Assembly (NCBI GenBank): GCA_036497565.1
Contig: DASXJE010000078.1
Location: forward strand, 1-42,173
DNA: 42,173 bases
DNA from: Mycobacteriales bacterium
GTDB lineage: Bacteria > Actinomycetota > Actinomycetes > Mycobacteriales > QHCD01
Direction of reading: 5' to 3'
Position 1 is the stretch's first letter; every line of letters starts with the position of its first letter. The translations under genes and the position numbers were made by a program. Below are positions 31,666 to 34,514 of this stretch, in pieces. Under the pieces are notes generated by a model, which did not search any database, was not told the origin of the DNA, and saw only the letters and a program-made list of their open reading frames with translations.

Positions 31666-32235
31666 ATGCTGCCCGGGTCGGACTTCGCCGCGCTGAGTGC
31701 GCCGGAGCTCGTCGAGCAGCTCGGCGACCCGCACCGGTACTTCACGGCGCAACAGCGTCTGCTCGCCCTCGGCCCGGATGCCGCCGAGCCCGCCCGCGAC
31801 GGTCTGCGCCACCGGGATCCGCGGGTACGCGCACGGTGCTGCAAGATCCTCGACCACGTCATGGACGCGGCGAGCACCCCGGCCCTGCTGGCGGCGCTCG
31901 ACGATCCCGTCGCCGAGGTCCGGATCGAGGCGCTGCACGCTCTCGCCTGCGATCGCTGCAAGAGCGACAGCACATGCCGTCCTGCGGCGGTCGACGTGCT
32001 TCCGCCCGCGATGGCACTGCTGCGCGCCGATCCCGACCCCCATGCGCGGGCGATGGCCGTCGAGCTGGTGGGCGCGTGGGTGCACACCCATCCCGAGGCG
32101 GTGCATGCCATCGACGTCGCTGCCGCCGGCGACCCGGCACCGGCGGTGCGCAAGAAGGCGCGGTGGTACGCCCCGGGCGGCACCGTCTACCGGCGTACGG
32201 CGCCGAAAGGACACCGGGCCGCTCAGCGGACCTGA
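31666..32235 (+). CDS. HEAT-repeat protein with cysteine cluster
   Basis: 189 residues made of about four HEAT-type helical repeats (QRLLALGPDAAEPARDGLRHRDPRVRARCCKILDHVMD ... AALDDPVAEVRIEALHALACD ... ). A Cys-rich loop CDRCKSDSTCRPAAVDVLPP interrupts the repeats and recalls a known actinobacterial HEAT family with ACDRCK-CRP. Such proteins serve as protein-protein scaffolds; no ligand is known. CAGACT lies 6 nt before the ATG, a weak leaderless candidate. Its last 13 bp overlap the convergent sigma gene. Confidence 0.82.
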   Translation: MLPGSDFAALSAPELVEQLGDPHRYFTAQQRLLALGPDAAEPARDGLRHRDPRVRARCCKILDHVMDAASTPALLAALDDPVAEVRIEALHALACDRCKSDSTCRPAAVDVLPPAMALLRADPDPHARAMAVELVGAWVHTHPEAVHAIDVAAAGDPAPAVRKKARWYAPGGTVYRRTAPKGHRAAQRT

Positions 32236-33167
32236 CCGCGCCCGCCGCGCAAGGGGTGATCGGCGGTGATCAGCGGCCCGAGGTGCCGAAGCTTGTCGGG
32301 GTTGATCACCGAGCGGACGGCCTGGACGGTGCCGTCGAGGATGTCGAGGGCCAAAACGTTCAGCAGCCGTCCGTCGGCGTCGAGGAAGAGCGCGCCCGGC
32401 TGCCCGTTGACCGGCACGGGCTCGAAATGCAGATCGTATTCGGCGGCGGCCCGGCTGAGCGCCGCCAGCAGCCGGAGCACCTTGTCCCGGCCGTTGACCG
32501 GCCGAGGCAGCGACGGGCCGTTGCCGCCACCGTCGCCGTAGGCCACGACGTCAGCGGCGAGCATCGTGATGAGCGGGTCGAAATCGCCGTCCTCGAGGGC
32601 GATGAAGAACCGGGTCGCGAGTTCGTCGCGCTCCTGCACCTCGGCGTCGAAGCGGGGTTTGCGGACGTCGACATGTCGGCGGGCCCGGTGCATCAGCTGT
32701 CGGCAGTGCTGCTCTGTCTTGTCGAGGATGCCGGCGATCTGCGGGTAGTCGAACTCGAACACCTCGCGGAGCAGGAACACGGCCCGTTCCGTCGGACTGA
32801 GCGTCTCCAGGAGCACGAGAAAGGCCATCGAGAGGGTGTCGGCGAGTTCGACCCGCTCGGACTCCGGCGTCGTGTCGGTGCGGACGAGTGGTTCGGGGAG
32901 CCAGGGCCCGACGTAGGCCTCGCGGCGCATCCGGGCCGACCGCAGATGATCGATGCTGAGCCGGGTGACCACCGAGGAGAGGTAGCTTTTGAGCGAGGCG
33001 ATCTGCGTACCGGCGGCCTGGGCGCGACGCAGCCGCAGGTAGGCGTCGGAGACGATGTCCTCGGCGTCGGCCACGCTGCCGGTCATCCGGTAGGCGAGCG
33101 AGAACAGCAACGACCGCAGCGCCACGAAGTCCTCGGCGCCGGCCGTGCCGTCGTCGGCCATCAGCAT
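32223..33167 (-). CDS. ECF41-group sigma factor (SigJ type)
   Basis: 314 residues. Sigma-2 (about 12-80, FVALRSLLFSLAYRMTGSVADAEDIVSDAYLRL) and sigma-4 (about 115-175, TLSPTERAVFLLREVFEFDYPQIAGIL) are followed by a SnoaL/NTF2-like C-terminal domain of about 130 residues. The linker WLPEPLV, the DGGGN loop (around 225-235) and terminal NPDKL match ECF41, in which the fused C-terminal domain replaces an anti-sigma factor. AGGAG lies 7 nt before the ATG. It is divergent from the oxidoreductase and shares a twin promoter with it. Confidence 0.93.
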   Translation of the reverse strand: MLMADDGTAGAEDFVALRSLLFSLAYRMTGSVADAEDIVSDAYLRLRRAQAAGTQIASLKSYLSSVVTRLSIDHLRSARMRREAYVGPWLPEPLVRTDTTPESERVELADTLSMAFLVLLETLSPTERAVFLLREVFEFDYPQIAGILDKTEQHCRQLMHRARRHVDVRKPRFDAEVQERDELATRFFIALEDGDFDPLITMLAADVVAYGDGGGNGPSLPRPVNGRDKVLRLLAALSRAAAEYDLHFEPVPVNGQPGALFLDADGRLLNVLALDILDGTVQAVRSVINPDKLRHLGPLITADHPLRGGRGQVR

Positions 33168-33190: not shown

Positions 33191-33219
33191 GAGACGGGGC
33201 CGCGCGCCGATCTGTGACA
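33191..33219 (-). promoter_or_regulatory. ECF41 promoter of the sigma gene
   Basis: Minus-strand TGTCACA (33219-33213), 16 nt, then CGTCTC (33196-33191). This equals the published ECF41 consensus TGTCACA-N16-CGTC, and predicts autoregulation. Confidence 0.88.
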
Positions 33220-33234
33220 GCCCCACGTCGAACC

Positions 33235-33263
33235 TGTCACAGCACGACGACCGGCGTCGTCTC
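33235..33263 (+). promoter_or_regulatory. ECF41 promoter of the oxidoreductase gene
   Basis: TGTCACA (33235-33241), 16 nt, then CGTCTC (33258-33263), the exact mirror of the sigma-gene promoter 15 bp away. It predicts that this oxidoreductase is the target of the ECF41 factor. Confidence 0.9.
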
Positions 33264-33299
33264 AGAGGGGTGACAACCTCGACTGTGAAGGCAGGCGAC

Positions 33300-34514
33300 A
33301 TGAAGCACAACGTTGTGATCATCGGAGCGGGATACGCCGGTGTCCCCGCCGCCCGGAGGTTGGCCCGCCAGGTGTGGCCGGACGAGGTCACCGTCACCCT
33401 GGTCAGCGCCTTCGGCTCCTTCGTGGAGCGTCCCCGGTTGCACCAGCTGGCCACCGGCCAGGACATCGACCAGGTGCCGTTGAGCCGCTACCTCAGCGGC
33501 TCGGGCGTCGAACTGGTGACCGCGTCGGTCACCCGTATCGACCTGGCCGGCCGCGAGGTGCACACCACCGACGAGCGCGGCGGTCGGCGCACCCTGCTCT
33601 ACGACACACTGGTCTACGCACTGGGCAGCAACATCGACGTCACGTCCGTGCCCGGCGTCGCCGAGCATTGCGCCATCCTGGTCGGCGCCTCCGCAGCGTT
33701 CGAGCTGCGCGATCGACTGACCGACCTCGCGGAGCGCGGTGGTGCCACGGCCACGGTCTGCGGGGGCGGACTGACCGGCATCGAAACCGTCACCGAGATC
33801 GCCACGGCGTTCCCCGGCATCCGCACTCAGCTGGTCAGCTCCGGCACGCCGGGCGGGCGGCTGTCGGACAAGGCCCGTCGCTACCTCGACGACACCTTCA
33901 CCGCGCTCGGTGTCCGCGTCGTCGAGGATGCCCGCGTCGACCGGGTCGAGCCGACGAGCCTGGTGCTCGCCGACGGCCGACACATTCCGTTCGAGCTGTG
34001 TGTCTGGGCCGGTGGTTTCACCGTGCCCACGCTCGCGCGGACGGCGGGGCTGGCGGTCAACGCGACCGGCCGGGCGCTCGTCGATACGACGCTCCGGTCG
34101 GTGTCCCACCACGACGTCTATGTCATCGGTGATGCGGCAGCCGTCGCCGGGCGCTGGGGAGAGCAACTCGCGATGGGCTGCCGTTCCGGTGGCTTCACCG
34201 GACCGAAGGTCGCCGACGTCATTGCCGCCCGGCTCACCGGTCGGGACCCGAAACCGTTCGCCTTCCGCTACATCCACGAATGCATCAGCCTCGGCCGCCG
34301 CCACGGTCTGGTGCAGTTCCTCAACGCCGACGAGACGCCGAAGAACCGGGTCCTGACGGGTCGGAAGGCGATCACCTACAAGAACACCACCCTCAACGGC
34401 GCCCGCTTGCTGTTCCGGCACTCCGGACCGGTGCTGGGCCGTCGTCGACACCTCGTCCCGACACCGACGCCGATCACGTCGAGGACGCAGCCGAAGTCCT
34501 CCCGGGTCGGATGA
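33300..34514 (+). CDS. NAD(P)/FAD-dependent oxidoreductase, NDH-2-like
   Basis: 404 residues. The FAD-binding Rossmann motif IIGAGYAG is at 7-14; a second nucleotide motif CGGGLTGIE occurs near 157, and the FAD-closing YVIGDAA near 277. The order fits the NDH-2/ferredoxin reductase superfamily; no C-terminal membrane helix is evident. ECF41 operons usually encode an oxidoreductase, epimerase or carboxymuconolactone decarboxylase beside the sigma gene. The ATG at 33300 with GGCAGG upstream is used; the GTG at 33270 lies at the expected transcription start and could serve a leaderless form. Confidence 0.88.
   Translation: MKHNVVIIGAGYAGVPAARRLARQVWPDEVTVTLVSAFGSFVERPRLHQLATGQDIDQVPLSRYLSGSGVELVTASVTRIDLAGREVHTTDERGGRRTLLYDTLVYALGSNIDVTSVPGVAEHCAILVGASAAFELRDRLTDLAERGGATATVCGGGLTGIETVTEIATAFPGIRTQLVSSGTPGGRLSDKARRYLDDTFTALGVRVVEDARVDRVEPTSLVLADGRHIPFELCVWAGGFTVPTLARTAGLAVNATGRALVDTTLRSVSHHDVYVIGDAAAVAGRWGEQLAMGCRSGGFTGPKVADVIAARLTGRDPKPFAFRYIHECISLGRRHGLVQFLNADETPKNRVLTGRKAITYKNTTLNGARLLFRHSGPVLGRRRHLVPTPTPITSRTQPKSSRVG

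Follow-up and report, generated by a model that had tools for sequence, protein, structure and literature searches.

The window (the whole stretch of DNA analysed, 42,173 nucleotides) carries the same motif twice, in mirror image, between a sigma factor gene and a divergent oxidoreductase gene, which raises the question of whether the two copies are separate promoters or a single regulatory site, and which sigma factor reads them. Reading the window sequence directly, we observed TGTCACA-N16-CGTCTC once per strand, at 33191-33219(-) and 33235-33263(+). On the minus strand, the N16 spacer lies between TGTCACA (33219-33213) and CGTCTC (33196-33191), and the site from 33219 to 33193 reads TGTCACAGATCGGCGCGCGGCCCCGTC, then TC; on the plus strand, it lies between TGTCACA (33235-33241) and CGTCTC (33258-33263), and the site from 33235 to 33261 reads TGTCACAGCACGACGACCGGCGTCGTC, again followed by TC. 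Within the -10 element only CGTC is strongly conserved, the following T (49%) and C (52%) being merely the commonest bases. The predicted ECF41-type promoters are hereafter called P-sigma (33193..33219, minus strand, -10 CGTC at 33196-33193) and P-ox (33235..33261, plus strand, -10 CGTC at 33258-33261). Their -35 heptamers are separated by a 15-bp centre (33220..33234) and form a perfect inverted repeat, TGTGACA-N15-TGTCACA. The first-pass annotation had given this geometry exactly and had recognised the ECF41 consensus, in agreement with the motif TGTCACA-N16-CGTC defined by Wecke et al. (2012; PMC3426412), who mapped it in two species; its function as a promoter has been proven for B. licheniformis and R. 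sphaeroides (PMC3426412). An ECF41 target promoter consists of TGTCACA-N16(+/-1)-CGTC upstream of a COE and/or ECF gene, and both P-sigma and P-ox correspond exactly to this description.

We then considered the two flanking genes. The gene on the minus strand (32223..33161, ATG at 33161, alternative ATG at 33167) encodes an ECF41 (SigJ-type) sigma factor of 312 aa, which scored above the curated cut-offs of TIGR02957 (SigX4; 346.9 bits, cut-off 323.25) and PRK09636 (SigJ; 320.6, cut-off 271). Pfam Sigma70_r2 and r4_2 were also above cut-off, and the protein contains exact copies of YVGPWLPEP in the linker and NPDKL in the C-terminal part, the two signature motifs of ECF41 (PMC7730460). SnoaL_2 reached 24.7 bits, just under its cut-off of 27, yet we accepted the C-terminal extension because the solved SigJ structure 5xe7 matched residues 10-292 (E 6e-47), nearly the full length, and because both curated models were above cut-off. 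The earlier proposal of an ECF41 sigma factor with a fused SnoaL domain therefore holds, with SnoaL_2 itself as its weakest element. The neighbouring genes encode a HEAT-repeat protein, a sulfotransferase, the oxidoreductase and a glyoxalase-like protein, and no anti-sigma factor gene adjoining the sigma gene was found among them. The gene on the plus strand (33300..34514, ATG at 33300) encodes an FAD/NAD(P) oxidoreductase of 404 aa with a match to Pyr_redox_2 (2e-36), its best solved relative being the NDH-like YjlD of B. subtilis (9.5e-30). The protein is thus an FAD/NAD two-dinucleotide-fold reductase related to a solved NDH-2, in line with the first description of it, and no matched NCBIfam model scored above its cut-off; judged from the protein sequence, "NDH-2-like" appears to be a fair label. 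Both gene starts are preceded by a sequence resembling a ribosome-binding site (GGAAGG and AAGGCAGG). An in-frame GTG at 33270 lies 30 nt upstream of ATG 33300 and 9 nt past the -10 element, and a leaderless start of the oxidoreductase at this codon is possible.

A search of the window with TGTCACA-N14..18-CGTC returned two matches, both at this locus, and no further one anywhere else in the window. Shuffled windows contained 0.21 matches on average, with at least two matches anywhere in 2/100 shuffles. By a first-order Markov estimate, the probability of a site is ~4e-7 per position, and the chance of finding one in the intergenic region is ~5e-5 on one strand and ~2e-9 on each strand at once. 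A chance origin of the promoter pair is excluded. At the scale of the source genome (G000), the count that the first-pass annotation had suggested gave 6 exact N16 matches against ~4 expected by the same model, with 1 match over three spacings for the reversed-pattern control; it brought out further motif-bearing loci, but little excess over chance. The genome-wide count is thus weak as proof of a regulon, and a single motif somewhere in the genome is far less telling than its position at this locus. The matches on contigs C89 and C177 were taken as chance, and a relaxed motif (TGTCRCN-N16-YGTY; 76 matches vs 31 for the reversed control) was too loose for use.

The perfect inverted repeat of the heptamers would also suit another explanation, in which a dimeric transcription factor binds TGTGACA-N15-TGTCACA as a single palindromic operator and CGTC is incidental. 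The comparison with Nakamurella lactea bears directly on this. The closest relative of the sigma factor in the genome collection is encoded there, at locus L009 (76% identity), beside a divergent oxidoreductase 65% identical to that of the window. The L009 intergenic region also contains one promoter per strand, the counterparts of P-sigma at L009:2840(+) and of P-ox at L009:2796(-), each TGTCGCA-N16-CGTC: N16 and CGTC are kept, both -35 elements carry the same A-to-G change relative to the window, and the gap between them is 43 bp vs 15 bp. The two L009 sites are the sole occurrences of TGTCGCA-N16-CGTC in the whole 5.8-Mb N. lactea genome, and TGTCACA-N16-CGTC occurs in five places, all outside L009. 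A fixed spacer, a free mutual distance and a joint change point to two promoters of one sigma factor, unlike the operator of a dimer. This was the only true ortholog found with the same arrangement; within the same family, the search for further orthologs covered one other genome, in which the oxidoreductase is absent. Recognition-helix residues that might be linked to the TGTCGCA variant were considered, but nothing was concluded from this single case. Elsewhere in N. lactea, two TGTCACA-N16-CGTC sites on opposite strands face each other at G444:C2:476863-476924 (L210/L211), adjoining another SigJ-like ECF gene related to a sigma gene on contig C107 of the source genome.

We also scanned 395 genomes of the class for mirrored pairs, using the pattern GACG-N16-TGTGACA-N5..35-TGTCACA-N16-CGTC. 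The pattern was present in 14/395 genomes and the reversed control in 0, and every pair has an ECF41 gene on one side (in L136, behind an NmrA-like gene). As the scan pattern presets N16 for these 14 matches, the N. lactea pair and the mirrored loci L024 and L124, all three found apart from the scan, are the more independent cases. Over the mirrored loci examined, these three included, the gap between the -35 elements ranges from 6 to 58 bp. The partners, named from reading the sequences and not by profile search, include MMPL transporters (six loci, five with a 6-bp gap) and SDR, carboxymuconolactone-decarboxylase-like, NmrA-like, DoxX-like and NDH-2-like proteins. The six MMPL loci, with gaps of 6 or 23 bp, do look operator-like; nevertheless, the heptamer-CGTC distance stays at 16 bp while the gap varies in the ortholog and elsewhere, and the heptamer with N16 and CGTC stands singly before many ECF41 operons. 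We therefore rejected the single operator on the variation of the gap and regard it as very improbable. The same variation shows the 15-bp spacing to be incidental, and the meaning first attached to the mirror geometry itself was overstated. A tree built from 86 ECF41 proteins requires 5 changes of the mirrored arrangement, at least 4 of them forced by well-supported branches, indicating that the arrangement was gained or lost repeatedly.

Some of these loci have features of their own. In L130, L131, L133, L134 and L135, the ECF41 gene is divergent from an MMPL-type transporter, the -35 heptamers are 6 bp apart, and candidate start codons lie 8-9 nt past the -10 on both sides; perhaps binding is mutually exclusive there and the transcripts are leaderless. 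At L024:2870-2950 and L137:1500-1578, one of which comes from an uncultured Mycobacterium, the divergent partner of the ECF41 gene encodes a small membrane protein of DoxX-like type, and 23-24 bp separate the mirrored promoters. At L050:2914(-), L074 and L081:2923(-), the ECF41 gene has the motif immediately upstream, though directed away from the gene; these loci have no motif before the sigma gene, and their promoter is on the side of the divergent partner only.

We further analyzed the loci of related oxidoreductases. Among the 30 best-matching oxidoreductase loci in the 395 genomes (window locus included), the fetched flank contains an ECF41 gene in 29. Most of them fall within a different ECF41 clade (24 rows, support 100/100), where the sigma gene precedes the oxidoreductase gene in the same orientation in 22/24 cases. 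TGTCACA-N16-CGTC is absent from this 24-row clade; instead, 19/24 loci have TGTCA-N18-GGTT before the oxidoreductase, mostly as TGTCAGG-N16-GGTTC and with constant spacing (for example L152, L158, L167 and G226:C1:7009726-7009753). Across 12 genomes picked as carriers, this dialect occurs once in 10/12 and twice in 2/12, with 0-1 matches per genome for the reversed control. L160 and L165, which also belong to this clade, have the intermediate form TGTCAGG/C-N16-CGTT. In the sigma proteins, the dialect is accompanied by TNLCLNxLTSAR in place of TRLSIDxLRSAR in region 2.4 and by QQ in place of RQ in the region 4.2 helix, an association confined to one clade and possibly the product of one evolutionary event. 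No dialect motif was detected before the sigma gene in 18/18 tested loci of the L149-L170 group.

These open arrangements bear on a further alternative, in which P-ox alone is functional, the sigma gene is transcribed from a housekeeping promoter and the sigma-side motif is a relic or a coincidence. The L149-L170 group, with its dialect promoter solely before the oxidoreductase, offers a precedent, and P-ECF is rarer than P-COE in Table 4 of Wecke et al. (36 and 41, respectively, of 55 divergent <ECF< >COE> loci; PMC3426412). However, P-sigma has retained its N16 spacer in N. lactea and shares its -35 change with P-ox there, and a chance site on the sigma-side strand would be a rare event (~5e-5, as above). 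We consider this alternative unlikely, somewhat less so than the single operator. The conserved sigma-side promoter of the ortholog supports the autoregulation first proposed for the window as a deduction about this locus; since the sigma genes of L149-L170 have no such promoter, not every version of the module includes autoregulation.

Taken together, these results make it highly probable that the locus contains two independent back-to-back ECF41 promoters from which the adjacent sigma factor drives its own gene and the divergent oxidoreductase gene. Starting from what was directly observed (the elements, their spacing, the gene identities and the conservation of both promoters in the ortholog), we propose the following sequence of events. 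By analogy with ECF41 members of Bacillus and Rhodobacter, the fused SnoaL-like C-terminal domain would restrain the sigma factor until a cytoplasmic signal activates it, and the active factor would recognise the motif, as its counterparts in these genera do. It would then bring RNA polymerase to P-ox, for expression of the NDH-2-like oxidoreductase, and, by extrapolation to this organism, to P-sigma, which would establish a positive feedback on its own gene. The enzyme might in turn remove or respond to the inducing signal.

On the basis of the sequences, an ECF41 sigma factor very likely controls both genes, but the source genome encodes more than one such factor. A second ECF41 sigma factor (TIGR02957, 369 bits) is encoded on contig C129, behind an epimerase gene, and the epimerase-sigma operon carries the identical motif, so that this factor probably reads it as well. 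On contig C94, an operon for an SDR and an alcohol-dehydrogenase-like (quinone-oxidoreductase-like) protein has an ECF41-type motif 10 nt before the SDR ATG (G000:C94:20537-20563, or L173:5538-5564), overlapping the end of a cytochrome b gene; it has no adjacent sigma gene. The claim that the switch controls a single oxidoreductase is therefore unsupported and, since a second ECF41 factor likely reads the motif, the adjacent sigma factor is not proven to be the regulator.

The two promoters could be served mainly, or also, by the C129 sigma factor, the locus then being a node of a shared regulon that includes the C94 operon. The exact motif before the C129 operon and the position of the C94 motif are consistent with this, as is the identity of 82-83% between the C94 SDR and its homologues in two other genomes (L142 and L143), which are the mirrored-promoter partners of ECF41 genes. 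Conversely, the recognition helices of the two sigma factors differ (KTEQHCRQL vs RSEAACRQL), a single target per ECF41 has been proposed (PMC3426412), the genome-wide motif counts are near chance, and C94 could be a contaminating contig, the assembly having a contamination of 4.42%. Overall, we hold a shared regulon to be possible but doubtful, and retain the adjacent sigma factor as the preferred regulator of both genes.

We lean only slightly towards a broader reading, in which the versions of the sigma-oxidoreductase module form a naturally occurring series of rewiring and cis-trans co-evolution, from the joint private -35 of N. lactea to the open loop of L149-L170, with the CGTT forms as intermediates. 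If so, one sigma factor would govern the same enzyme in two versions, closed-loop (mirror or operon) and open-loop, and promoter specificity would shift together with regions 2.4 and 4.2. We rate this side result as more interesting than the locus itself, and the dialects, if confirmed, could serve as orthogonal sigma/promoter pairs. No description of TGTCAGG-N16-GGTTC was found in the literature searched, which excluded the 2021 ECF re-classification (where the dialect may be contained), and the same literature yielded no paper on subgroup-specific ECF41 promoters beyond Wecke et al. (2012).

Compared with known systems, the sigma factor shares with M. tuberculosis SigJ (ECF41, PDB 5xe7) the domain order sigma2-linker(WLPEP)-sigma4-SnoaL_2, the motifs of the latter being slightly diverged (YTGTWLPEP and NPDKF). 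The N. lactea locus, likewise with divergent genes and with N16 in both promoters, differs by its TGTCGCA -35 elements and its 43-bp gap. The value of this comparison lies in a compact two-promoter module whose -35 copies have both changed together in the sister species, a clean test of the co-evolution of a sigma factor and its own promoter. The arrangement itself was described in 2012, and the locus is ordinary for ECF41. We found no mechanistic difference from the <ECF< >COE> loci of Wecke et al., from which only the particular locus and the NDH-2-like partner differ, and their COE classes include oxidoreductases with Pyr_redox/_2, like this partner. With the sigma group, the motif, the spacer, the divergent order and a motif before both genes in common, the locus bears out the published ECF41 model in a further lineage.
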